The notes under the pieces are model-generated. The model saw only the letters and a list, made by a program, of their open reading frames with translations. It did not search any database and was not told where the DNA came from. Shown here piece after piece: positions 35,881 through 60,613 of a stretch of DNA of 64,000 bases (its first letter is position 1; every line of letters begins with the position of its first letter). Both the position numbers and the translations under genes were made by a program. Source of the DNA: Thozetella sp. PMI_491 (Eukaryota; Ascomycota; Sordariomycetes; Chaetosphaeriales; Chaetosphaeriaceae); assembly GCA_021432635.1 (NCBI GenBank), contig MU270019.1:496001-560000 (forward strand), written 5' to 3'.

Positions 35881-37235
35881 CTACACTTCTGCCGCTACCT
35901 CTTTAACGTGTTTAGTAAGATCATAGTCACAAACCTCCTCGATTGTCAGCTTCCCCGGTCTCTCGAGTCCTGTGCTCCATCCTATCCTTTCGTTTAGGTC
36001 TGTTCGCGCCTTCGCGCTTGCGTCCTGCACACGCGTTGCCCTCGGCTTTCGTGTCTTCTCGTATATGGCCAACGCCTTTTGTACATCGCCGCCAAACAAA
36101 TCTTGCCCGAATACCTCACCGAGTACCGCTGCATCTTCGATCGCTTGGCAATATCCCTGGCTCTGGTCTGGTAGCATCGGATGGGCAGCATCTCCAAGCA
36201 GCGCCACTTTCCCCTTGGTCCAATAAGGGTACTCCTGGTGCACGTAGAGGCGCCACATCTTGATATCGTCGGCGTTCAAGAACAGCTTCCTGACACGTGG
36301 GTCTAGCTCCGGGAAGGTATCACAGAGTTCCTGGGCCGTCGCCCCAATATTCCATCCTTCTTTGTCAAGGCCGTTACGTACGCCGGGGTAGAAGCAGTAG
36401 CAACTGACCACCTCTCCGGAATGGCATCCCGAGAGGACGATCTTATCGATCCCAAAACCGCCCCAGAACTCAATGGCCTCGTTGGTAATGAAGTCTTCTA
36501 AACCGAGCTCTCTGAGCTTGTCGGCGCTAATAATGCATCGATAGCAGCATGATTCTGATCGTGTAAATTGCGGTTCGATACCGAGAGCTCGTCGCATAGA
36601 CGAGCGGATCCCATCGGCTGCGATGATGGCGTCGTGGATTGTAGTGACACCATTCTCAAAGATTACGGTGCCGGAAGCCGTGTCCACTTCTTTGGCGTGA
36701 TGGTTGGTGAGGATGACGCAGGGCTCACCGGCGCCCTCTTCCTGTTGGACCGTCCGTTGGAGAACCTGGTGCATATCAATGCGGTGGAAATTGTAGTATT
36801 CCTATTGTATCGGTCAGCTAATGCGCATCCTCGTGACCTCTTTCTCTTTGATCAGGCCGAGCAAGAGAAAGCACTTACAGAGCCAAATTTGGCCTTGTAG
36901 TCGCCCAGTCCATATTGGTTTGTTACCTCGCCCGTTGTCCAGTCATGCATTATGAGATTCCGGAGCACGACGGGCTTGACGGCCTCAATGTCGACATCCC
37001 ACTTGAGCAACCATCGTGACCCATTGGACGCTACGGAGAGTGAAGCGCCAACCTCGCCCGCGAAGTCGTAACGCTCGTACAGCGTAACGCGGTGGCCAGC
37101 TCGGCGGAGGGACAATGCCGCTGTGAGACCTCCCAATCCAGCTCCAATTATTCCAATATTGAGCTGTTTCCATTGCGAATTGCCCATTGAACCCATGATC
37201 GGCAAGAACTGGCCCGTAGGCGTGACCGAGTCCAA
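35881..37235 (-). CDS. FAD-dependent monooxygenase, salicylate-hydroxylase-like
   Basis: Two exons (37235-36879 and 36801-35881, 77-bp intron) encode 425 aa. The Rossmann motif GAGLGGL is near residue 30, the DG motif in AADGIRSSMRR near 160, and the FAD-ribityl motif GDAAHPMLPDQSQG near 310. This group A flavoprotein family hydroxylates, and sometimes decarboxylates, aromatic rings using NAD(P)H and O2. An ATG 14 codons in (MGSMGN) may be the true start. It is the leftmost member of the candidate cluster. Copies of the shared promoter motif lie at 37410 and 37550, 175-315 bp upstream. Confidence 0.9.
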
Positions 37236-37409: not shown

Positions 37410-37418
37410 CCCGTCGTA
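37410..37418 (+). promoter_or_regulatory. Putative cluster regulator site (CCCGTCGTA)
   Basis: One of nine CCCGTCG(C/T)(G/A) copies found in the promoter-containing gaps of the 36-49 kb cluster. Confidence 0.4.
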
Positions 37419-37549
37419 TGTTATCGTAGCCGTATCAGCGCAACCTAGGTTGTGCTTACCAATGGTTGAGGTATACAAAATACCCCATGAGACGATAGAT
37501 AAGATAGAGACGGTGCGTTATTCTATCGTTGCCGCATCTAAAACTATAT

Positions 37550-37558
37550 CCCGTCGCG
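37550..37558 (+). promoter_or_regulatory. Putative cluster regulator site (TATCCCGTCGCG)
   Basis: Exact CCCGTCGCG core preceded by ATAT, the same context as the copy at 39306 and similar to 46574. Confidence 0.5.
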
Positions 37559-37916
37559 AGCGGAGGCGGGGACCGGCCATTTCCGTGCACATACGACGGC
37601 TTTTGTAATACCCCTTCCCCGCCATGGCCGCGTGCTCGGCGCCGGCTGCGTCAAGATTAGCTTTCCATTTTTCGGCAGAAGATGCGTTAGTGGCAAGCTT
37701 CCTTAGACTTTGGGTCCTGATGCCCGGTACATCGGCACCTTACCGACGATCACTTTTGCCCAATTACTTTGAGGGAGATACAATCTATTGTCCGCGATAG
37801 GTGGCCACCGGTATCGAGTTTACGCAATCTCAGGCTCATCCTGGAGAATAAAAGACATGACTAAGGTATTGTGATGTATCTAGAAGCGACCAGCTTATCT
37901 ATTCTCATTACTCGCG

Positions 37917-39039
37917 CTATGCAGCATCCCTGGCTTCAATATCCGTGACCTGTAGTACAAGTTCTACTACCGTATCCGCTAGACTCTCATCAAGATCCAT
38001 GCTTAAAATTTGGCTAGCTTTGGAGCTGTCCGAAGTAAACACCTTGCCAACGAGTCGATTTTCAGGACTACCCGTGGGCACTCGGGCTTTAATCGACGCA
38101 GGCACAGATGGGGATGCGTGGATAATATCTGCTAGCTCCTGCATATCATAGTTGCCGTTTACGAAGAGCAGTCGCTCTCCTGCCGCCGCTACGGCCTCGA
38201 GGGCATTTACATGGGCCGTCGCAAGACCGGTTACCGAGGTCCATACTAGATTTTCGTGTCCATTATTAGCAATCGCAATCGACAATGAACCTGCCGCCCA
38301 GCAGGCAGCGCAGAGACTTACATGGTGCCTTAGTCGGTGGCATTTCCGTTGCATCCACGAGTCCCCATATCAGTTGGTTGCTTGTGTTCAAGGCCTTAGG
38401 AGACTCCAATGTCCCAGAAAAAGCTGGCCCGAACACCATCCCCGGACAGAGCGTAACCAGCTCCCAATGCGGCCTCTTCTCTCGTAAAAACTGCCACGCC
38501 GTCTCCTCTGCCAGCTTCTTGCTTGCACGGTACGCCTGAGGTATGGGAGCGCCCTTTAGACCATCCTGATAGGTCAGTGGCGACCAGTCATCATCGCGAT
38601 ATACCGTGCCGGGGGATAGCCCCTTGGATGCATCATAAACTGCGGCGAAGCTGCTAGTGAGCACGATTCGCTTGACCGATGGCACCTTTGACGCTGCTAG
38701 GCAGATGGCCTCGGTGCCGCGTATGGAGGGTATCAGCATCTCTTGTTCGGGGTCCTCAATATCATAGCTGAAGGGCGCGGCAAGGTGGAGGACGCCATCA
38801 CAGTCTTGGATCGCATCTCCGTAGCCATCGGGGGAGCTGATGTCCTCGACAATGTACGTCGAAAGGGCCGGGTGGTGCTTATGGGCAGCAGCAACTGCAG
38901 CTGCCTTCGTGGCATTTCGGACGGTACCGACAACAGCGTAGTTGCGCTGCAGCAGTTCTGCCACGCAGTACGCCGCGATGAAACCGTTGGCACCAGTCAC
39001 GAGGATGCGGCCGCGAGGGCTCTGTGTCGAGGCAGTCAT
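37917..39039 (-). CDS. NAD(P)-dependent epimerase/dehydratase, DFR/aldehyde-reductase-like
   Basis: Two exons (39039-38322 and 38245-37917, 76-bp intron) encode 348 aa. An in-frame ATG at 39069 would add ten residues. The extended short-chain-dehydrogenase fold shows the cofactor loop VTGANGFIA, then LHLAAPFS and VLTSSFAAVY, and the catalytic YRASK (YxxxK). Family members resemble dihydroflavonol, cinnamoyl-CoA or methylglyoxal reductases and interconvert carbonyl and alcohol groups. It lies between the first monooxygenase and the divergent hydrolase. A cluster-motif copy is 237-267 bp upstream at 39306. Confidence 0.88.
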
Positions 39040-39069
39040 GGTAGGGAGCTTCGGATGCTGGGTGACCAA

Positions 39070-39766
39070 AAGGCACAGAACAGAAACGATGACGGGCGCT
39101 TGCTTGCTCTCGGTGCAGGTGGTGCAGGTGATGCAAGTGTATCGCGTCGCTTCAGATAGCTATTAAGATATCCGATAACTAACCACATGCTCAGCTTCGT
39201 ATCTGAGCTAGGCCCCCCTGGTCCTTGACGAGCACCAAGCAGAGCTGTCGACTACCCTTGGCGTACCGCGCCAACTGACGCATGACCAATGACATGCTCT
39301 CATATCCCGTCGCGCCAAAAATGAGAGTTGGAGAAAGCCTCAGGGCGGGGTTGGGAACAAGCGCAACCCCGCATTGCTGGCGCTGCTAAGCACTGAGAAC
39401 CCCCGAATTTCAGGGCAGTCTAGGACCCGCCCCGCCTGCGATGGGGACGTTAGTGGCTCCGTTGGCGCTAAGGTGGATCCAGGATTAGGTATCTCGTGCT
39501 CTGACAACCTCCCGCAATACGATAAGCATCCCTTATCGCTTAGGGTAGGTACCAAGACAGCTCAGCCGTAGGGAACCGAGAGCCGATATTGGAGGGGGCT
39601 CGCCTTTGCAACAAGCACTTGTCCTCCTTGCATCAAGGCGTCGAAAGAGTTTAGTTCTCACGTTCCGTCGGTATACAAGAGTTTCCCATCTTTTAACGAC
39701 CAGTCAAGGCATAGAGCGACCCAGACGCTGCAACCACTGCCACCCAACTCGAAATCGCCGACAAGG
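39070..39766. promoter_or_regulatory. Divergent promoter between the reductase and hydrolase genes
   Basis: This gap contains both promoters and one cluster-motif copy at 39306-39314. No gene is seen. Confidence 0.5.
39306..39314 (+). promoter_or_regulatory. Putative cluster regulator site (ATATCCCGTCGCG)
   Basis: Exact CCCGTCGCG core in the divergent promoter of the reductase and the hydrolase, with the same ATAT prefix as the 37550 copy. Confidence 0.5.
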
Positions 39767-40893
39767 ATGGCTTCATCAACAGCGGGCGTCGGCCATGAGG
39801 CATTGAATCCCATCAACCCTGAAATTCTCCCTAGGCTAGAGCCCAGGTTCGTCGAGCTCTACAATACCCACGTCGCCAATACTCCAAACCGACCGATCGA
39901 TCTCGCAGTCTTGCGCAATGTGTACTCGCGACTCTATGGCTACGGAACCGCCCCTGGCCCCGATTGCGAGCGGGAGTACGAGATGGAAGTAGCTGGATGG
40001 TCTAAATATCCAGGCAACATCAAAATTCGGGTCTATGTACCGAAAGGCGAGCGGCCGGAAAAGGGATGGCCGGTACACTTCGACTTCCATGGCGGCGGTG
40101 AGCCTCATCTCCCTTCCCGAGAGCGTGCTGGCAGTACACTGACATATTCGCTTCTTCAGGCTGGGGTCTCGGCGACCTTGAGACGGAATCCCACATTTGC
40201 AGACACATCTGCGCCTTGGCCTCGGTCGTAGTCGTCGATGTAGACTATCGCCTTGTCCCCGAGTTCCCGTTCCCTACAGGCATCTACGACTGTTTCTCGG
40301 TTCTCCAGCACGTGCTCTCACATCCTGCCGAGTTTTCGATCAACCCCGAAATCGTGACCCTTGGCGGCGTGTCAGCGGGCGCCAACATTGCCTTCGCAGT
40401 GGACCACCTGGCACGCGACTCAGGCCTGCGCCGGATTAACGCAGTCGTGGTCGGGACGCCTACAATTGCGGACCTGAGCAAATTCGGTAAACCCGAGGAC
40501 GCACCCTACGCGAGTCTCAAGGAGATGGAATTCGCGCCGCTGCTCAACTGGGCGCGCTTGAAGTGGTTTGATGCGCTCAAGTGGGACTCTTTGTCCAAAG
40601 ACGAGGCAAAGCGAGCTGAGCAGCTTCAGGACGTGGGCTGGTTTCGAGACTTGATGGACGCGCCGAATTGCCAGGGCCTGGCGCACCTGACAGTAGTGAT
40701 GACGGCTGAGTGTGATCCTCTACGGGACGAGGGAGAGGCATACGCGAAGAAGATAGAAAGCTGTGGCAACAAGGTTGTGATTAAGAGGTTCAAGGGGGTT
40801 CCCCACCCCTTTCAGCATATGGATGCGGCCTTGGACCAGGCGAAGGAATTTATCCAGGATACGGTCCAGTACATCAAAGGATGTCAGAACTAG
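39767..40893 (+). CDS. Alpha/beta hydrolase fold-3 (HSL/Aes-type esterase)
   Basis: Two exons (39767-40097 and 40160-40893, 62-bp intron) encode 354 aa. The HGGG oxyanion-hole motif is formed across the splice junction (FDFHGG|GWG). VDYRLVPEFPFP follows, then the nucleophile elbow GVSAGAN, the acidic site in TAECDPLRDEG and the His in VPHPFQH. It therefore has a complete triad and should hydrolyse esters or lactones. No signal peptide is seen, so it acts inside the cell. It sits in the cluster between the reductase and the second monooxygenase, fitting a ring- or ester-opening step. Confidence 0.9.
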
Positions 40894-41092
40894 ATGTACG
40901 TAGGTTGAGCCGTTGATGGGACGGCCGAGATCAGCAACAAGAGCATATTGATCCAGTAATCAAAGCTGGTCATTTCTAATTCACCAGGCTGTTTTTCCAG
41001 GATGTATATTCAGTAGGATGGCAAGGTAGTCACCACACTTGTATATTCTGCAGTTCCTATACATCTACATGCTATGAATCTACCCGAATGAC

Positions 41093-42355
41093 TTAGTTAG
41101 CATCTTTAGCAGGTACAAGAACCCTGGCCCTCTTGCTAACTAGAGGGCTATCCGAAGTGAGATTCCTCAAGTCATGCGCATCAAGACAGGCCTGTCGACT
41201 CAGCAGAACCGCCGGCCGTGTTCTTTCACGCATGTCCTCCTCATACACCGCCACGGCCTCCGATAATGGCCGCCCCTCGTTCCAGGCCGAGATCAGATGG
41301 CCACTTAGCCGTGCTGCATCCGTGATACCGTGGTTAAAGGCTTCGCCGCGATACATGGTCATGGCATGCGCCGCGTCGCCGGCGAGCGTCGCGCGGCCTG
41401 CCCGGTTGTTCCAAACGCGCGGCACCCAGTCCTGGAGTCTGATCTCGAGCACCTCCGAGTCGTCTGGGATTTCATCGATAGCCCTCTTTAGCCGTTCTTC
41501 GAATGGCTGTGCCATTTCCTTCATCTTTGCGACACGCTCCCTGTTCGTCGCTGGTACCTCGTCCGCCTCGGACTTCACCGGCCACGACATGTTCAGCTGG
41601 GCCTCGTAGTAAGCCCCGGCCGCGTCATCGCTGGACCCCGAACCATTGACCTCGGGCGTTGATAGGGTGGAGTACCATAGAAACACTCCTGAGTCTTTAT
41701 GAGACCCTTGGAAGAGGAGGGGGTCGATGCTACGCAGCGGCTTGACCTGGTCGGGGGTTAAACGCATCGTGATGCCCATAAAGCGAATTGGCAGCTGATA
41801 TAGTTCGGATTTGGACGGATCCGACTCGGCGTAAAGTAAGCGACGAGTGCGCGAGCTGGAGCCGTCTGCGCCGACAACAACGGCGCCTGTCGCAGAGGAG
41901 CCGTCTTCGAAATGCGCCGTTACTCCTCCTTGACCACTGTCCTGAGTCTCGAATCGCTGGATGTTCTTCCCCCACTGCACATCGATGCCTGTCGAAAGAA
42001 GCCCACGCAGTTTCCGCCGGTTGATCCTCAGGCGTTCGCTGGGCGGAATCACATAGGCGGGCTCGGCGTTTGCTAGATCCAGGAACACGAACCGCCCGGT
42101 GTCCTTAATCCCTTGCTGGGGATCCACCTGGATACCTCGTAGGCCATCGTATAGCTCTGTTGGGAGGCAGGTCTCAAAAGCTGGAAGGGCCCAATGTACA
42201 GTAATGCCCCAGCCGCCCTCGCTTGCGCTGAAGTCGGGATCCCGCTCGTATACTGCGAAAGGTACCTTGGCTTTTTTGAGCGCTTGTGCGAGCGTCAGCC
42301 CGACGATGCCTCCGCCGATGATGAGAACGGGAAGGTCGGCGCCGCTGGTCGCCAT
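41093..42355 (-). CDS. FAD-dependent monooxygenase (second of the cluster)
   Basis: A single exon encodes 420 aa from the ATG at 42355. An ATG at 42409 would add 18 residues with no family counterpart. Landmarks are LIIGGGIVGLTLAQAL at the N-terminus, the DG motif VVGADGSSSRTRR near residue 170, and LAGDAAHAMTMYRGEAFNHG near residue 330. The enzyme would oxygenate an aromatic or enone substrate with FAD and NAD(P)H. It differs clearly from the first monooxygenase, so the two probably catalyse separate steps. Its end converges with the hydrolase gene across a 199-bp gap that lacks the cluster motif. Confidence 0.9.
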   Translation of the reverse strand: MATSGADLPVLIIGGGIVGLTLAQALKKAKVPFAVYERDPDFSASEGGWGITVHWALPAFETCLPTELYDGLRGIQVDPQQGIKDTGRFVFLDLANAEPAYVIPPSERLRINRRKLRGLLSTGIDVQWGKNIQRFETQDSGQGGVTAHFEDGSSATGAVVVGADGSSSRTRRLLYAESDPSKSELYQLPIRFMGITMRLTPDQVKPLRSIDPLLFQGSHKDSGVFLWYSTLSTPEVNGSGSSDDAAGAYYEAQLNMSWPVKSEADEVPATNRERVAKMKEMAQPFEERLKRAIDEIPDDSEVLEIRLQDWVPRVWNNRAGRATLAGDAAHAMTMYRGEAFNHGITDAARLSGHLISAWNEGRPLSEAVAVYEEDMRERTRPAVLLSRQACLDAHDLRNLTSDSPLVSKRARVLVPAKDAN

Positions 42356-42409
42356 GGCGTATGGCTTGGGGAACACACGTGAGAGGAGATGTGCGCAATA
42401 CGTTCCCAC

Positions 42410-43058
42410 TTTATCCTTCTGCTTTAGCCAGCGGGCAATAATTATACGTCGGTGACCTTAGGCGAAGGTGACGTGTGGTGATTCAGCACGACAAGCCTGG
42501 AAGCAGACGTGAACTTTGTCTCCTCCCAGAACCCAGTTGCCTGGAACTCGTCATTTCACCATGTGCGCAGAGCAACCAACACCCGATTGCATTCCGGGTC
42601 GTCCGACACTAACGCCTGGGCGTGTTAGCAGATAGCCGCCTGCTGCCCAATTTGGTACTCTCCTTCCATCCCGGGGCGGGGGAGGGGCCGCAACATTGAC
42701 CCGAGATAAGCGGCGGCACCGCATCGGCCATCCTCTCTTGGAACTTCAGCTGCACCCTGCAGCTTTCTCCAACGACTGGTCACGCCGCCAGAAGGGGTAG
42801 CTAGGCGATGTCCTCATCAGTTCCACGCTATCGTTAGCGCCGGGTGCGTGTACGGGTACTCCCCACTGCATGACATAGACACTCCTTGAACGCTAACGTA
42901 GTCTCCAACTTTCTCTTATCTGCCGCATTTTCCGTCGTAACCCCCGCGGAGCCTTCCCCGTCGTACTCTGTAATAACCCGTCGCGCACCACCTCACCTCA
43001 TAGGCCACCAATCCAGCTCGGCTGCTGCACCTCCAGATACCTTGTAGGTAGTAGGCAC
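42410..43058. promoter_or_regulatory. Divergent promoter between second monooxygenase and zinc-cluster regulator
   Basis: A 650-bp gap holding three cluster-motif copies within 55 bp, close to the regulator's start. This would allow the regulator to control itself. No gene is seen. Confidence 0.5.
42931..42985 (+). promoter_or_regulatory. Triple cluster-motif site near the regulator gene
   Basis: TCCGTCGTA at 42931-42939, CCCGTCGTA at 42957-42965 and CCCGTCGCG at 42977-42985 are spaced by 26 and 20 bp. They lie 74-128 bp before the ATG of the Zn2Cys6 gene. Confidence 0.5.
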
Positions 43059-45018
43059 ATGGGCCGTAGGAAGACCGCCTGCCAGGCATGCGCGTCAATT
43101 AAGACGCTGTGCTCTAGAGAAGCCCCATGTGCACGCTGCAGGCGCCTATCGCTTCCCTGCAGCCTGCAGGCAGGACAGGGAGGTGTCGCTACGAGGTTGC
43201 ACCACGGGAGCTCCTCCCGATGGGCCGAGGGCGCGGCTGTCCCGAAGACGCGGGCACGGTCTGAACGCTCATACGCAGGTTGCATCAACATACGTCTGGC
43301 CTTGACCTTATGGACATTGATCGCTTGGCTGACTGAACGATACTGTCGACAGCGCCGCAAGAAGTGCGATGAGGCGTATCCTTGCGGGGATTGCACACGG
43401 CTGAGTCTGATTTGCATTCCCAGGTCGTTGGTACAACATGACCAGGGACCATCGAGGCCAGCCGCCTCAACATCCGGAGCCGCCTCTATTCCCGAAATCC
43501 GCGAGGGACTCTCTGTCCTACCATACAAGAGCTCTCTCATTCCCTCCCCTCCGGCACTTACCAGCCATCTGCCAGAATCTTGCCCCGAATTCGCAAGCGA
43601 AGACTCTCCTTACCCAGCTTCACCTTCCCTCTCCCCTCCGGCTTCATTCGACTGGCTACGTGTTATCGACGAAGAATACTCTACATCCTCCGCTCGAGCC
43701 TCCAACCTCGCCGACAGCAGCGCCTTACATGTTCTCCCGTCGGAACGCGCCAGCGACCATGGCCCGCCTGGAGAAGGCTCCATTGCACCACTGTCGGCAG
43801 CACTCGCCAACCTGTCAAGTTTAACACCAGCAGGCCTAGTTGACTGGACCGTGGGAGAGCGTCATCTGCTCCACCACTTTCTGCAGTCCGTTGCGAGAGT
43901 CCTTGTTGTGGTTCCCGATAACGATAATCCATTCTTTAAAGTCGTGGTGCCCATGGCCCTCGAGAGCGCGGTTGTGAAAGATTCGATGGTGGCATTGTCC
44001 GCCTGCCATCTTTCTAAGGTCTATCCAGACTTCGAACGAAATCTTCTCATACATCGCAGTCGGGCATTACTTGGCCTCAAGGCTGGGTTTGAAGAGGGAG
44101 GAATGTCGATCGTTTGGACGTTGACAGCAACGCTTTTGCTATGTCTTTCAGAGGTACACTATGCCGAACCTGGATACTGTCCATAGGCTGACAATGGTCA
44201 AGATCTGCGAAGAAAAGTCTAGAAAATGGCTCCTCTACCTCCACGGGGCTCGCGCACTGCTTGTCGATGCTGAGGCCATAACAAGCCAGCCTCAGTTAGC
44301 TTTCCTGGCTGAGCTGTACAATTATCTATGCTGCGTTGGACCTGTCACTACTGATAACGTTCCCAGGCCACTCAAGGATGAGCTCTTTGGCCACAATAAC
44401 CTCCACGCAGGTCAGGAGAGCTTGCCCCCGCGGGCTCGACCATTCTTCGGTCTGGCCGCGCCGCTATACGGATACCTTGCCGGTGTCAACAGTCTTGCAG
44501 TCTTGCGAGCTGCAGGCAACCCCAGCGGACGCCTCGACGATCATAGCTTTCGGGCCAAGATAGGAGAGATTGAGGTTAAATTACAGGAGTGGAACCCGCC
44601 AGATATCGAGAGCACAGATTCCCACTTATTTGAGACCAGGGCAGTTGCTGTCGCGGTGCAGTGGGCCGTCTTAATGCGGCTACGCCAGGTATCGTCTGCG
44701 TTCCTCCCCGCCCAGGTCTTTGATCTCGTCAATCCGGTAGACCAGGTTCTATCGGCGCTGTCTGTAGTACGACCGGGATCCTCCTCCGAGGCGCGTTTGC
44801 TCTTTCCACTTTTTATCGCTGGTGTTAACAGCATGGCCAAAGCCAATCGGCTCACACTGGAGTTCCGGGTCAACTTATTAAATAACACAATCGGATTCGG
44901 TAATATTGCATGCGCTCACAAACTTCTGGATGAGACGTGGCGAAGAGCAAACGGTGGAGAACTAGCTCGGTGGGAGGACTTGGCACAGGAGATGGCACCC
45001 GGGTTGATATTATTTTGA
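43059..45018 (+). CDS. Zn2Cys6 transcription factor with duplicated zinc-cluster region; likely cluster regulator
   Basis: Two exons (43059-44153 and 44203-45018, 49-bp intron) encode 636 aa. Residues 8-34 hold a complete six-cysteine zinc cluster (CQACASIKTLC then PCARCRRLSLPC). It lacks the usual basic RxRK run. A second cluster near residue 100 has the basic run and five of six cysteines (CRQRRKKC then PCGDCTRLSLIC). A branch-point-like CTGAC and CGACAG just before RRKKC suggest a hidden intron ending at 43352, but no donor in the right phase is clear. The rest matches a Fungal_trans_2-like domain (LLLCLSE, WLLYLHGARALL). It sits inside the cluster with three motif copies at its promoter, so it is the natural candidate regulator. 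Confidence 0.85.
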
Positions 45019-45119
45019 CAGTAGGCGCTATCTAGATTCACAACATTGGAATGCCGAGCCAAAATACAATTGAGCTAAACATCGATCAACAGTGCTGCTA
45101 TGCTTCATATCCCCCACCT

Positions 45120-46097
45120 TCAGTAGGGTTTTGCGCCAGCCAGCTTCAGTAACTGGTCCGTTAGCTCTGGCATGTTGAGAGGCCGATCGCGGTCCTTGGG
45201 ATCCCGTGTCCCATCCTCTAGCAGGGTCTCAGTTGATCGCGCCACAATGTTGTCATGAGGCCAGTTCGTCGTTCCTCCAAATGACTCGAAGACTTGTTTT
45301 TTGAGAGCCATCTGCTCTGGGCTTGCTAGTCGGGCCGGGGTGTACGCCGCATAGATGACGGTGCGGATCTGGGTGCTGCGCTCCGTCGGCTCAGCGCCGT
45401 AATGAATTGTCCGGCTATCCCAGAGGATTAAATCTCCGACGTCGGCGCAGACCTTGAGTGGCCTGCAACCCCTCTCTTCGAACCATCTGAGCTGCGCGTC
45501 GTCGAACATGAAGCGGTCGAGGGGCTTCCAGTCCTTAGAGTCCGTCTTCGTGTCAAAGAACTCATCGTTCAGGAGATGGCTACCTGGGTACACCACCAAG
45601 CCGCCGTCTTCAGGCCCTGCTGGCGAGAGATTGATGATACCCTGCACACAGTGCAGGCCCCTGCGCAGTGGTGACTGGTCGATATGCTCCCACGCGCCTT
45701 TCCGGGGAATATCTCGTCGATTCGGTAGCGTCACGTTCAGACTGTCAAAACTGGCCAGCAGCTCTCGCGTGCCCCACAGTTCGGCAAAAGCATTAAGAAC
45801 TCCTGGCTCCTGACGGGCGTCCCACATAAACTTCTCATGTGCCACGCAGTAACCGTGGAATGTGTTGATCTTGGACTGGACAGGCAGGTTCTCCTTGACC
45901 CATGTGGAGGGATCAGAAAAGTCCAGTGGTGTATCGAACGACTTGAGCCAGGTGTAGGCAGCCTCTTGGTACTGGACAGCACGGTTAAGAGGGATCGCAC
46001 CCTTGACAACACAATAGCCGTTCTTTTGCAGGTCGGCCCTCCAGCCAGTGAGTTTTGATCTGGCGCGAGGTTTAGTGGGAGGGACCGGCAGCGACAT
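45120..46097 (-). CDS. Phytanoyl-CoA dioxygenase (PhyH) family, Fe(II)/2-oxoglutarate oxygenase
   Basis: A single exon encodes 325 aa. The iron-binding facial triad is seen as HxD in WEHIDQSP (near residue 140) and the distal His in DSRTIHYGAEP. An Arg for 2-oxoglutarate follows in QIRTVIYAAY. Such enzymes hydroxylate, desaturate or rearrange small molecules using Fe(II), O2 and 2-oxoglutarate. No targeting signal is obvious. It converges with the zinc-cluster regulator across a 101-bp gap. It is divergent from the MFS gene, and the gap between them has three cluster-motif copies. Confidence 0.9.
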   Translation of the reverse strand: MSLPVPPTKPRARSKLTGWRADLQKNGYCVVKGAIPLNRAVQYQEAAYTWLKSFDTPLDFSDPSTWVKENLPVQSKINTFHGYCVAHEKFMWDARQEPGVLNAFAELWGTRELLASFDSLNVTLPNRRDIPRKGAWEHIDQSPLRRGLHCVQGIINLSPAGPEDGGLVVYPGSHLLNDEFFDTKTDSKDWKPLDRFMFDDAQLRWFEERGCRPLKVCADVGDLILWDSRTIHYGAEPTERSTQIRTVIYAAYTPARLASPEQMALKKQVFESFGGTTNWPHDNIVARSTETLLEDGTRDPKDRDRPLNMPELTDQLLKLAGAKPY

Positions 46098-46517
46098 ATT
46101 GACGAGCTGGCTTACCGAATCTCATCTACAATTGGAGATGGGATGAGTTTAGGAGATCCCTCCGGTGTAATGGCAGAGGGAGCCATGTTTTTCGTACCAA
46201 GCAAGAACGTAGGAGTTGACTTTGGTTGGCGGTGCGTTGATGAAATCATGAATGGTTGGTAAAGGCGAATGGAGATGCAGTATCATCTGGTCATGGTATA
46301 TAAACTACTAGAACTCCGTCGCCACGAAGGCAAAGGAACCAACTCATAAGTGCGTAGGAGCTGTTCTCCCAAGATGCTAAGTGACGTGGAGATCGCATGA
46401 TGGCTCAGACGATGTCCAGTCCGAGGTGAGAATGCCGGGGGAGTGGGGGAGAGCATGCCCTCAGCATTGCCACCTTGTCAGGGTAGCAGAAGACCGCTAC
46501 CAAGCACTTCTCCTTTT

Positions 46518-46526
46518 CCCGTCGTG
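46518..46526 (+). promoter_or_regulatory. Putative cluster regulator site (CCCGTCGTG)
   Basis: Variant copy in the PhyH/MFS divergent promoter. Confidence 0.35.
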
Positions 46527-46573
46527 ACCACCCTCAGGGATAGGACTAGCGTTAAGCAAGACGCTTGAGATAT

Positions 46574-46620
46574 CCCGTCGCAAGGTGGGTCTCCTTGTTT
46601 CCCCGTCGCGAGGTGGGTCT
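46574..46620 (+). promoter_or_regulatory. Paired cluster regulator sites in a direct repeat
   Basis: CCCGTCGCAAGGTGGGTCT at 46574 and CCCGTCGCGAGGTGGGTCT at 46602 differ at one base over 19 bp and are 28 bp apart. The extended match suggests a longer protein-binding footprint than the 9-bp core. Confidence 0.55.
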
Positions 46621-47052: not shown

Positions 47053-48788
47053 ATGCTGGGACCTAGCGCGGCTGTTCGGCGACAGGCCCAACACCCGCCA
47101 TCAGCGGTCGTGGCCGCGGCCGGCGACGAAACGCCCTGGCACCAGGATGCCGGACTGCGCAAAGTCATAGTCCCCATTGCCCTGATATATCTAACGCAGG
47201 TCTGCACGGGGTTCGACGCCACGTTAACAGCCAACCTGCAAAGCTTTGCAGAGTGGAAACGAGGTGAGAAGCGATGCCAATCGCTCGCCCAGGAAAGATA
47301 ACAGATGAAGGCTGACGTCTTAGAAAGAGATGGGAATGCCCAACTCGTCTGAACTAGGTGTCATTACGGCGATCTATTTTATCGGCTGTCTCGTGGGGAG
47401 CATTCCAGCCTCATGGATTACGGACAAATTGTGAGAAAGACTGCTCCTTGCTGTCTCCCGCCCTAACGCTGACCGTATATCACTGCAGCGGTCGCAAAGT
47501 CGGACTCGCGATCGGCCAGGCACTGACAATTGCCGGAGCCGGATTTCAAGCAGGCTCGCACGGCCGCGGCCAATATATCGGATCACGATTCATTCTTGGC
47601 TTCGGCATTGCCTTTGTCACGTGTGCCGGGCCGGCCCTGCTCAGCGAGTTGGCGCACCCTCGCTTCCGCGGCACTCTTGTGTCCTTCTTCAACCCATTCT
47701 GGTATTTAGGATCTATCATTGTCGCCTGGACCTGCTTCGGCACGAGTCATATGGCTCCAGACAATACGTGGAATTGGCGAATTCCATCGCTGTTGCAAGC
47801 CCTTATCCCCTGCTGCGTGTTGCCTCTCGTGTGGTGGATGCCAGAGAGCCCTCGCTGGCTGGTCTCCAAGGGCCGTAGTGAAGAGGCCTTGGCCATCTTG
47901 GCCAAGTACCATGGGAACGGAAACGCTAGCGACGAACTGGTGGTGGTGCAGTTTGGAGAGATCAAGGACGCCATTGAGCGAGCCCACGAGGGCATCTCAT
48001 GGCGTGCGTTGCTTACACAGAAGATCAACCTGCAGCGGCTGTTCATCGTCGTGACCATGACGTTGATGACGTTGTGGTGTGGTCAAAACATTATCACATT
48101 CTATTTCTCGAGCATCCTAAACAGCATAGGTGTTACCTCGACGACACAACAGTACGTCATTCCTCGCATATATCCCTCACCTTTCACGCGCCTGGACTAA
48201 CCCCATTGCAGGACGGGCATCAACGGTGGGCTTAACATCGCCAATCTGCTCTCCTCTCTCGTTGGTGCCGTTCTGGCTGACCGAATCGGGCGCCGGAAAC
48301 TATGGATGGTCTCCTTTGTCGGCATGATCACCATCTTCGTACCATTCATTGCGCTCTCGGCCATATATTCGCAACGCCAGGGCAACGAAGGCTACGGCGT
48401 TATTGCCTGTCTGTTTCTGTTCGACATAATGTATAATGTCGCCTGCAACCCGTTGCTATACTCATATACGACGGAGATCATGCCATTCTTCATGCGAAGC
48501 AAAGGGCTTGCAGTGAAGAACTTCGTGGGGCAGATCGCCCTCATTATTAATATGTATGTCAACCCGGTAGCGCTTGCCGCTATCGCGTGGCGCTATTATT
48601 TTGTCTTCCTCGCGCTCAACTGTCTATGGCTTTTTCTTATCTGGATGTTCTTTCCGGAAACGAAAGGTTACTCGTTGGAAGAACTGGCTGTGCTATTTGA
48701 CAGTGACGCTATGCCGGTGATTGATGGTTACAAGGAAAAGGAGGAGTCCCCAGCAGCTGAAATTATGGCTGCTGGAAAGCAAGGGTAG
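47053..48788 (+). CDS. MFS sugar-porter-family transporter
   Basis: Four exons (47053-47263, 47328-47430, 47489-48151, 48212-48788) encode 517 aa. Landmarks are TGFDATLTANLQ in TM1, the GRK loop after TM2, WWMPESPRWL before the central loop, LADRIGRRKLW in the second half and PETKGYSLEEL at the end. Twelve spans are expected. Sugar-porter relatives also carry lactose-like sugars, quinate and other plant-derived compounds. As the rightmost cluster member with the shared motif upstream, it could import the pathway's substrate or export its product. The first intron's acceptor (AAAG at 47327) is chosen because only it keeps the frame. Confidence 0.9.
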
Positions 48789-57290: not shown

Positions 57291-60200
57291 ATGGAGCCGC
57301 TCGCAGCTTTAAGCCTCGCCAGCAGCGTAATGCAGCTTATCAGCTTTAGTCGCGAGGTCATTGACGTGGCTCGACAGGTGCACAAGGCTGGGTCAGTCGA
57401 CCACGATCTAACTGACCGTGCTACCGCCCTCGCAGATCTAGCTGCTTCTGTTCGCAGGTCATTGCCACCTGTGCAGCCAACGGGGGCATCTCTTCCACAG
57501 AAAGAGTTGCTTGAAGCAGCTCAGAAGTGTGGTGACTCAGCTACCGACCTGTGTACAGAAGTAGCCAAGGTCAACGCTTCATGGGGCAAAGGGAGTGCAA
57601 CTCGTTCCGTGATAACCTCTCTTAAGACAATATGGAAAAGGCGCAATCTTGAGAAGGCAGAGAAGACGATGCTGCACTGGCAAAGAGTCATGGACTCCGG
57701 ACTTCTTCATCGCATCTGGTAAGGCTCAGCTCAGGATGGAGGAAAAATGATCTGAGTTCATCACATGCTAAAGCTTTTATCTCCGATAGTTCAACAACGG
57801 AAGCCCAGGCTCTTCGGAACCAAGGGGATTTCGATAAGCTAGACGAGACGTTGCGCCGAATGATCGAAGAAGTCGCTCGAGGGCATGCAAAGATCGTCCA
57901 GGCGGCCGCCGCGGAATCTGCTGCTATCCAATCGCATGTGACAGTCGAAATATCCAAGTCTCAAGGTCTTTTGTCGAAAGAACTGAATGGTCTCCGCCTC
58001 GATGCGGCCGCCGAGGCACAAAGAGAGAAACTGCTCAAAAGTCTCAAATTCGACCTCATGAACGAGCGAGAGAATCTAATTGCCGATTCCCACAGCGAAA
58101 CGTTCAAGTGGATATACTTGCCCCCATCCGATTCGAGACCATGGAATGACTTTGCAGAATGGCTCGGCTCGGATCAAAAGCTGTACTGGATCAGTGGAAA
58201 ACCTGGCTCCGGAAAGAGCACACTGATGAAGTTTCTTGTCCATGGAGAACAAACAAGGCAGCTGCTGAAGCCTGACACCATAATCCTGGCCTACTACCTC
58301 TGGAGCCCTGGGCACTCAATGCAGAGGTCTGTTAGAGGGCTTCTTTCCACACTGTGCCACCAAGTCCTCTCCGAAAAAGGCAATCTCACCCAGAGTCTCC
58401 TGGCCCGACAGTCTAGATTTCACACGAAGGACCATCCGTCAGATTGGTCATACCAGGACATGAAACTCTGCCTCTTTGAGTGTCTTCTATCCTGCACCCG
58501 GCCGAAGTGTCTTTTCTTGGATGGCTTGGATGAGATTTCATCGTCTGATGGGCCCGTCGCGCTGCTTGACCTTATTGACGAAATTGCGAGTATACCCGAT
58601 GTCAAGATATGCGTTGCTAGCCGGCCCGAGCCAGTCTTCCAGCGGCACTACGAACTCCTGCCGAAGTTAAGGCTCCAAGATCTAACAGGATCCGATATAC
58701 ACATATTCTGCAAGGAGTCTCTCCAGTCATTTAAGGGTCTCCCAGAAGACCTAACTCTCTCGTACCTAGAGGGCACACGCGCTACAAACATACTCGAACT
58801 CCTCGTTAGGAATTCCGAAGGCGTCTTTCTATGGGTTCATCTTGCACTGAAAAGTATCCAACGAGGCTGCTCGAATTCTGATTCCTCAGATATGATACTC
58901 GAGCGCATCGAGATGCTTCCAACTGGTTTGGATGAGCTTTACCGGGCCATGTGGAACCGAACAAATGTCGACGATGGGCTCTACGAAAAGACAGGTGCTC
59001 AGTATCTCAATTATATTTTAGAAGCCTGTTTCTTAGGTTATCAATACAGCCTCTATAAGCACACCGCCATTTCCGTCTTCGAACTGATGGTAGCCTGCGA
59101 GCCCTCGGCACATAACTGTTTGCTGGATACCTCGGCCGGCCCAACTCCAGAGGAGCTTCAAAGATACTGTTTTACGCTCATGAAAAATATCGAGTCTCAC
59201 TGTGCCGGGCTAGTGGAATTGAATGCGATGGATAACATTGAGGTCTCCTCCAAAGATGACGCTCTGGGCCGATTGACCCGCTTTACCGACATCACGATCA
59301 ATTTTATTCATCGAACTGCGGTGGACTTCTTGACAGACACAAAGGAAGGGAAGCAAATTCTTGCACTTGACACATCTTCCCATGACGAACGGGTAGTCAA
59401 TCTTACTAGAGGTGGTCTTTTTCGGCAAGTTCTATGGCGGCAGTCACTAGGGCATCGAGCTTTTTTCCTTCTACTTCAACAGGAGAGTATGATGAGTCTG
59501 ATCAAGAAAATCAGCCTCGAAATTTCGGACGAGGAGGCACAAATATTTCTGGGCGCCGCGGAAATCATGTATAAAGCTGTATCCAGCAAGATTCGAGCGA
59601 AGCACCCAAACCTTCTATTCCCCGACTTTCTCGGCCTTGTCGCAGGCTGGGGCTTTATTTCTTTCGTTCTAAAAAGAGTAGAGCAACTGGAAGAACTTCG
59701 TGGGCGAAATACTTTACCAGAGTACAGAGGCTATTTGTTGCATCGAGCATCGAGCTACGACAGGAAACCCATACATTGGGATTCGAAGTTTGCTCTTGCT
59801 CGGAAACTCATTGAAGGTGGTGCAGCCTGTGACATGAGACACTTCGCTGTCAGGTACTTGACTTTTAAAACGGATCTGCCTCCTATTCTCACCCCGACAG
59901 TCTCTTTCCTCTATAGCGGAATCAACTATATTGCGGAACAACGACCTACACAGTCATCATGCAGCTCTGAGGTAGACGAATACTTGACGACCGTGGGGCA
60001 ATTCTGTGACCTAATCGGAATACTTGTCCAACGACATTGGGATGGAGGAGAAATTTACATTTTTTTCCTCGGTGGTCGCACCTTGATAGAGGATATTTTT
60101 TTCCTTGATCCCCTTTCCAACGACCGGAGTGCTTCGATTAATCACCACGCCTCGTGTTTACTGGGCAACATCAGCTTCATTTTAGCATTATTCCTCGAAC

Positions 60201-60613
60201 TCGTTGCCGAAACGCTTCCGCGAATAACAGCAACTCGTACATTTGGCGACCTCACAAATTTACTGAACGATGTCAATGCTTCTGAGGGCAAAGTGGAACC
60301 TTACGTCAAACTACTCTGTTACAACCCAGAGGAAGGTCAAGATAAGCCCCTCGTGCCCCTAAGTCCTACTCATTTAGATGTAGGATTTCTGCGATCGGTT
60401 ATTATAGAAAGCGTTGGGCGCGGGAAGGTTTATCACGGCGACATCTGCTTCGATAAGATTATCGACTTCATATCAACAGCTGCTGGAGAAACCCGAAAAG
60501 TGTCAACGTTTGACGAGATAAGGGAGATCATCAAGTCATGCGCCTGGTTCAAGCGCCTGCTTACTGGATCTTTTTCGACGTATCCGCCGTCCCCGTTTAA
60601 TGAAGGAGAATAA
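57291..60613 (+). CDS. NACHT-domain NLR-like protein with fungal N-terminal domain
   Basis: Two exons (57291-57718 and 57790-60613, 71-bp intron) encode 1,083 aa. Residues 1-140 form the helical N-terminal domain found in fungal STAND proteins (MEPLAALSLASSVMQLISF...). The NACHT part has Walker A GKPGSGKST near residue 280, Walker B CLFLDGLDEI near 382, the CVASRPEP sensor and GVFLWVHLALKSI. Such proteins are thought to act in heterokaryon incompatibility and in responses to non-self. The last 600 residues carry no WD40, TPR or ankyrin repeats that I recognise. The acceptor at 57789 was chosen because it has a GCTAA branch site and restores the frame. Confidence 0.88.

Follow-up and report, generated by a model that had tools for sequence, protein, structure and literature searches.

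Analysis of a 64,000-nucleotide stretch of the genome of the ascomycete Thozetella sp. PMI_491 (hereafter the window; C5:496001-560000 in an assembly of 157 contigs and 72.3 Mb, GenBank contig MU270019.1) revealed a seven-gene cluster in which the short word CCCGTCGYR recurs in every promoter gap. Its role as a cis-regulatory site common to the genes of one cluster is well supported. The word is better written TWYCCCGTCGYR, because seven of the eight exact sites share T-(A/T) just upstream, and in this form it is probably, judging from the sequence, a cis-element bound by the cluster's own regulator, a predicted protein combining Zn2Cys6 zinc clusters with a Fungal_trans_2 domain. This regulator is the sole DNA-binding protein recognised by Pfam among the seven genes, and the natural inference is that the in-cluster protein would be the binder.

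Concentration of the word in the promoter gaps

The seven genes, defined from Pfam matches together with reading frames, are served by four gaps (3106 bp in total) that were taken as the cluster promoter DNA; three of these gaps are divergent, and each of the four holds one to three sites. All nine intergenic copies listed in a preliminary description of this DNA are present where it had placed them, eight as exact CCCGTCGYR and the ninth as the variant TCCGTCGTA (Table 1). Every one of the seven genes has an upstream site within 650 bp, and the nearest, at 74, 94 and 120 bp, are those in front of the regulator's own start codon. Two further exact copies lie inside reading frames, bringing the total for the window to 10.

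Across the assembly the word occurs 2222 times (1116 + 1106 copies in 72.3 Mb), and this rate, which may in truth be somewhat higher as some stretches read N, predicts 0.095 copies in the promoter gaps, which hold 8 exact ones. Read backwards, the word occurs 3556 times. The background sample consisted of 20 stretches, all from contig C1; L026, L029, L033, L037, L040 and L041, which read N, were dropped, giving 140 kb. For the noncoding-rate and random-set tests this was joined to 50.2 kb of window sequence from beyond the cluster (190.2 kb, with 7 copies of CCCGTCGYR). The preliminary description had named an equal density in other intergenic DNA as the result that would speak against it; with noncoding-like DNA defined by proxy as that without a stop-to-stop frame of 100 codons, we found 1 copy in 57.7 kb versus 8 in 3.1 kb. 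The 7-mer CCCGTCG is present 6 times in the same 57.7 kb. The earlier statement that a given 9-mer is expected less than once in the window holds for a single 9-mer, whereas for the degenerate word, with both strands counted, the expectation is 1.85 copies from shuffling and 1.97 from the genome count.

Because the motif had been picked after the fact, we searched for any equally strong word. CCCGTCG emerged, unsupervised and with both strands counted, as the most enriched 7-mer of the four gaps (8 copies, every gap), and a 7-mer of equal strength was found in 2 of 1000 GC-matched random sets, each made up of four segments of the 190.2 kb background that include coding DNA. Second-order Markov versions of the gaps contained eight or more copies of CCCGTCG in 0 of 5000 cases. 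Same-strand pairs of CCCGTCGYR starting at most 70 bp apart number 9 genome-wide, 3 of them inside the cluster; for CCCGTCG there are 104 such pairs, again with 3 inside the cluster.

The bases just upstream of the word, which played no part in choosing it, are also conserved: in the nine aligned sites T is found at -3 in eight, A or T at -2 in all nine and C or T at -1 in eight. T-W at -3,-2 is present in 7 of the 8 exact sites versus 0 of 29 other genomic copies (Fisher P 8e-7), the background of this test being the 140 kb sample. TWYCCCGTCGYR (reverse YRCGACGGGRWA) has six copies in the window, each of them inside the cluster, and 0 in the 140 kb taken from elsewhere in the genome, while ATATCCCGTCGC is found 14 times genome-wide, 11 of these outside the cluster. 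These 11 copies and the 6 close CCCGTCGYR pairs outside the cluster all overlap a stop-to-stop frame of 91 codons or more (17 of 17), an overlap that does not by itself prove them to be coding.

The preliminary description further stated that the motif occupies all four promoter gaps, is absent from the convergent gaps and the flanking promoters, and sets the cluster limits. Its presence in all four gaps is borne out, and the empty flanking upstream regions agree with such limits: CCCGTCGYR is absent from the 853 bp in front of an arrestin-like gene (whose Arrestin_N match is below the Pfam cutoff) and from the 950 bp in front of the DUF3176 gene. The argument from the convergent gaps carries no weight; they contain 0 copies with 0.8 expected at the promoter-gap density, and their emptiness is uninformative because they span only 300 bp in total.

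Pfam recognised no polyketide synthase, non-ribosomal peptide synthetase or terpene cyclase among the open reading frames (ORFs) scanned, which comprise part of the window's exons; the pathway is thus as likely to be catabolic or modifying as to be biosynthetic. The start of the PhyH gene is most likely at 46186 rather than 46097, with a short first exon, and a search of solved structures returned no relative of its protein at E 0.01. A literature search combining PhyH, gene cluster, Zn2Cys6, salicylate and MFS returned no paper describing this cluster.

Table 1. Genes of the cluster, copies of the word and paralogous loci. Window positions unless a contig is named; sites give the position of the 9-mer.
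Feature	Coordinates	Strand	Remarks
FAD-dependent monooxygenase 1 (FMO1; FAD_binding_3)	35881..37196	-	one intron placed by eye
NAD(P)-dependent reductase, GRE2 / dihydroflavonol-reductase-like (Epimerase)	37917..39039	-	one intron placed by eye
Alpha/beta hydrolase (Abhydrolase_3 on second exon)	39767..40893	+	one intron placed by eye
FAD-dependent monooxygenase 2 (FMO2; FAD_binding_3)	41093..42355	-	
Regulator (two tandem Zn2Cys6 stretches + Fungal_trans_2)	43059..45018	+	putative introns 43290-43343 (AT-AC), 44154-44202 (GT-AG)
PhyH-type dioxygenase	45120..46186	-	start codon 46186-46184, putative intron 46060-46115
MFS transporter (Sugar_tr)	47053..48788	+	several introns placed by eye
Site CCCGTCGTA	37410..37418	+	214 bp upstream of FMO1 start codon; sole exact site without T at -3
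Site TATCCCGTCGCG	37550..37558	+	354 bp upstream of FMO1
Site TATCCCGTCGCG	39306..39314	+	divergent gap reductase-hydrolase (-267 / -453)
Variant site TCCGTCGTA	42931..42939	+	first base differs; 120 bp upstream of regulator start codon
Site TTCCCCGTCGTA	42957..42965	+	94 bp upstream of regulator start codon, 602 from FMO2
Site TAACCCGTCGCG	42977..42985	+	74 bp upstream of regulator start codon, 622 from FMO2
Site TTTCCCGTCGTG	46518..46526	+	divergent gap PhyH-transporter (-332 / -528)
Site TATCCCGTCGCA	46574..46582	+	PhyH-transporter gap; first copy of local duplication
Site TTCCCCGTCGCG	46602..46610	+	PhyH-transporter gap; second copy of local duplication
Extra copy of the word	36966	-	inside FAD monooxygenase 1
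Extra copy of the word	58553	+	inside NACHT-type ORF
Regulator + PhyH locus	C8:1110693-1117233		
Regulator + PhyH locus	C64:122497-126163		
Regulator + PhyH locus	C58:415787-421236		

Two observations concern other places. On contig C1, six copies of CCCGTCGYR, five of them on the minus strand, lie within 16.4 kb (C1:2551222-2567590) among the matches listed (100 of 2222). Two NLR-like ORFs bearing NPHP3_N and DUF7791 domains (58-2319 and 57860-60613) are located close to the two ends of the window.

The regulator and its paralogous loci

The unspliced first exon of the regulator gene matches PF00172 at 43.9 bits (Pfam cutoff 21) in two stretches, and PF11951 (Fungal_trans_2) is found on both exon translations. 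In a search of solved structures the protein weakly matches Upc2 (E 0.024) and Ppr1 (E 0.032). Its first zinc cluster is complete (CX2CX6CX5CX2CX6C), and the second is without its first cysteine in the unspliced frame. Removal of 43290-43343 (ATACGT...CTGAC...GATAC; 54 bases, no stop, in frame) yields GCINCRQRRKKC, which matches GCLSCRQRRKKC and the GCSNC of paralogs, and leaves both clusters complete; the zinc-cluster score is then 54.7 bits for the 119-amino-acid N-terminal piece minus the segment, versus 43.9 for the unspliced exon. Among removals of 35-259 bases within 43079-43388, none with GT-AG or GC-AG ends makes the second cluster complete. We infer that 43290-43343 is a 54-base AT-AC intron completing the second Zn2Cys6 cluster; AT-AC introns make up 0.019% of annotated fungal introns according to the excerpted text of PMC7072748. 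Other removals with non-standard ends also complete the second cluster, for instance a 246-base AT-AC removal, which loses the first.

The regulator has matches at nine other loci of the genome, three of which are strong (C64, C8 and C58; E < 1e-30, 35-49% identity over the main stretch). At each of these three a PhyH paralog lies within about 5 kb (65% at C64, 64% at C8 and 69% at C58), as against 0 of the 6 weak loci, so that with the cluster itself a regulator is found near a PhyH gene at four places in the genome. A match to the sugar-type transporter adjoins the loci on C8 (31%) and C64 (29%), among the 138 of 260 candidates scored; for the remaining cluster enzymes these loci gave no match. 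The protein comparisons suggest that a regulator-plus-oxygenase module has been duplicated. In the C8 paralog a single open frame encodes two complete clusters without splicing, and the paralog on C64 has a complete first cluster and a second which, read by eye, is split by apparent GT-AG introns. The regulator appears to be one of a family whose members carry two Zn2Cys6 clusters in tandem, of which the second would be complete in the window protein only after the putative splicing. On C7 (C7:35295-38114) a divergent PhyH / transporter pair resembles that of the window (best stretches with 56% and 51% identity), with no regulator match nearby.

Alternatives to a site read by the cluster's own regulator

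Several results weigh against the reading of TWYCCCGTCGYR as a cis-element of this cluster bound by its own regulator, and we take them here together with the alternatives that they touch. Words of equal strength were found in 5 of 1000 random sets for 6-mers and in 42 of 1000 for 8-mers, the latter being less exceptional, and a null without GC matching and with overlaps allowed, in which AT-rich repeat segments gave stronger words, was replaced by the GC-matched one. The genome-wide pair totals are not above those of the backwards controls (9 vs 13, and 104 vs 244 for CCCGTCG); only the local concentration in the cluster is unusual, not the genome-wide total. The controls of the flank comparison left out five outside-cluster copies chosen for upstream ATAT (L009, L018-L021), and the contrast is inflated because most of the controls are probably in coding sequence (long open frames hold 6 of the 7 background copies). 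Together with the selection of the motif after looking and the local duplication behind one of the pairs, the random-set figures for 6-mers, 7-mers and 8-mers would be in keeping with a word that is by accident frequent in four short gaps and was chosen on that account. Such a chance origin is nevertheless very unlikely: flank positions that had no part in choosing the word are alike in the sites but not in the controls, a third of the genome's close pairs (3 of 9) are found here, and no gap is without a copy.

The sites at 46574 and 46602 are not independent. CCCGTCGCRAGGTGGGTCT is locally duplicated at 46574-46620 in the PhyH-transporter promoter, with a spacing of 28 bp and 19 bp shared with one mismatch; the number of independent copies is thus seven. 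This duplication, and the presence of all intergenic copies on one strand, would be in keeping with a repeat or mobile-element remnant that was copied into the gaps instead of selected sites. However, no flanking sequence beyond about 12 bp is common to the other sites, and the extended word is uncommon elsewhere, as the genome-wide count of ATATCCCGTCGC attests; we consider such an origin extremely improbable.

All the sites point the same way, a feature for which the favoured reading does not account. The eight exact intergenic sites share one strand (two-sided P 0.008; 7 of 7, P 0.016, without the duplicate), and the preliminary description's claim that all copies are on the plus strand is correct for the nine intergenic copies; of the two copies in reading frames, that at 36966 is on the minus strand. 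Strand bias, along with the three sites that lie within 120 bp of the regulator's start codon and could fall in its leader, might point to a transcript-level element, namely a 5' leader or antisense RNA signal in place of a protein site on DNA. Against this, the genes served are on both strands, so that the element would be sense for some and antisense for others, and for the other six sites the distance to a start codon is 214-528 bp; this explanation is highly improbable.

With respect to the paralogous loci, their three readable upstream stretches (1848 bp) contain CCGTCG three times with 0.9 expected (P 0.06) and CCCGTCG once with 0.19 expected (P 0.17), the latter as AATCCCGTCGTT in the PhyH promoter on C64; upstream of the two readable paralogous regulators, about 0.7 kb each, there are 1 and 0 copies of CCGTCG. 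Among the matches listed, no same-strand CCCGTCG pair is found at C7, C8, C58 or C64 (100 of 104) and no TCCCGTCGCR at C7 or C8 (100 of 294). The paralogous promoters neither confirm nor refute a family-wide site. The lack of a clear site copy upstream of the two paralogous regulators, and the hundreds of related copies elsewhere (for example, the 294 of TCCCGTCGCR), would suit a real shared cis-element bound by a pathway-independent regulator encoded elsewhere, such as one of nutrient or stress response, with the in-cluster protein reading some other site. Yet no other place among the matches listed has such a concentration of paired sites, a pattern expected of a regulator private to the cluster but not of a global one. 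We hold a pathway-independent binder to be unlikely, while giving it more credence than the preceding alternatives.

On the favoured reading of a site bound by the in-cluster protein, the regulator would bind TWYCCCGTCGYR at one to three sites in every one of the four gaps and activate the genes on one or both sides; since three of the gaps are divergent, one occupied gap can serve two genes. That three sites lie 74-120 bp ahead of its own start codon suggests that the regulator may also control itself. The asymmetric site would be read by a monomer or by both zinc clusters, not by a dimer on repeated CGG, and it is conceivable that two zinc clusters in one chain cover CGA-CGG directly. A more specific version, in which a tandem double-Zn2Cys6 monomer reads one asymmetric 12-base site, unlike the dimers on paired CGG, and AT-AC splicing could switch between a two-cluster and a one-cluster form, is speculative and on present evidence rather doubtful.

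Comparison with known systems

Cluster-specific Zn2Cys6 regulators are encoded within the cluster that they control and share a motif common to its promoters, an arrangement on which CASSIS relies and which can mark the cluster limits. The system described here is alike in having a regulator in the cluster and one motif common to the promoters, and would be a new instance of this familiar arrangement; it differs in that no backbone enzyme is recognised among the ORFs scanned, such that the pathway may be catabolic or tailoring, and in the asymmetry of its site. It provides both a site that can be put to the test and a candidate boundary for an oxidative cluster of seven genes of which the literature searched holds no description. 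Excerpts of PMC5576322 report the use, with citation, of CASSIS as a promoter-motif tool for cluster prediction. A literature search on CGACGGG and Zn2Cys6 returned no paper.

According to the excerpted text of PMC5559640, well-studied Zn2Cys6 members typically read the CGG triplet in pairs. Read on the strand CGACGGG, the present site likewise holds a CGG triplet, as in the Gal4 type. It differs from that type in that the paired triplets are not found: the nine aligned sites, with 8 bases on each side, show no further CGG at a constant spacing or in a constant orientation, and the conserved block is a single one of about 12 bases. A closer likeness is to Pho7 of fission yeast, whose site is given in the same excerpts as TCG(G/C)(A/T)xxTTxAA, with two in direct repeat in the pho1 promoter, and for which the authors consider, as one possibility, binding by a monomer in the manner of AlcR (PMC5559640). 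Both are 12-base asymmetric sites with a CG-containing core and A/T-rich side positions. The core, flank sequence and spacing are nonetheless unlike, and the Pho7 site is backed by footprints and gel shifts, whereas the site here is predicted from sequence.

Proteins with two zinc clusters are on record in excerpts describing an Alternaria regulator with a transmembrane domain (PMC10305253) and a Pleurotus protein with septin domains and C-terminal clusters (PMC7295025); the relevant wording in the excerpted parts of PMC4192604 and PMC5599776 refers to two separate proteins. The window regulator would resemble the Alternaria and Pleurotus proteins in carrying two zinc clusters in one chain, and is set apart from them by having both predicted clusters at the N-terminus, a Fungal_trans_2 domain and a PhyH gene nearby. 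Should such a two-cluster protein indeed read one asymmetric site, this large family of fungal regulators would gain a further mode of recognition.

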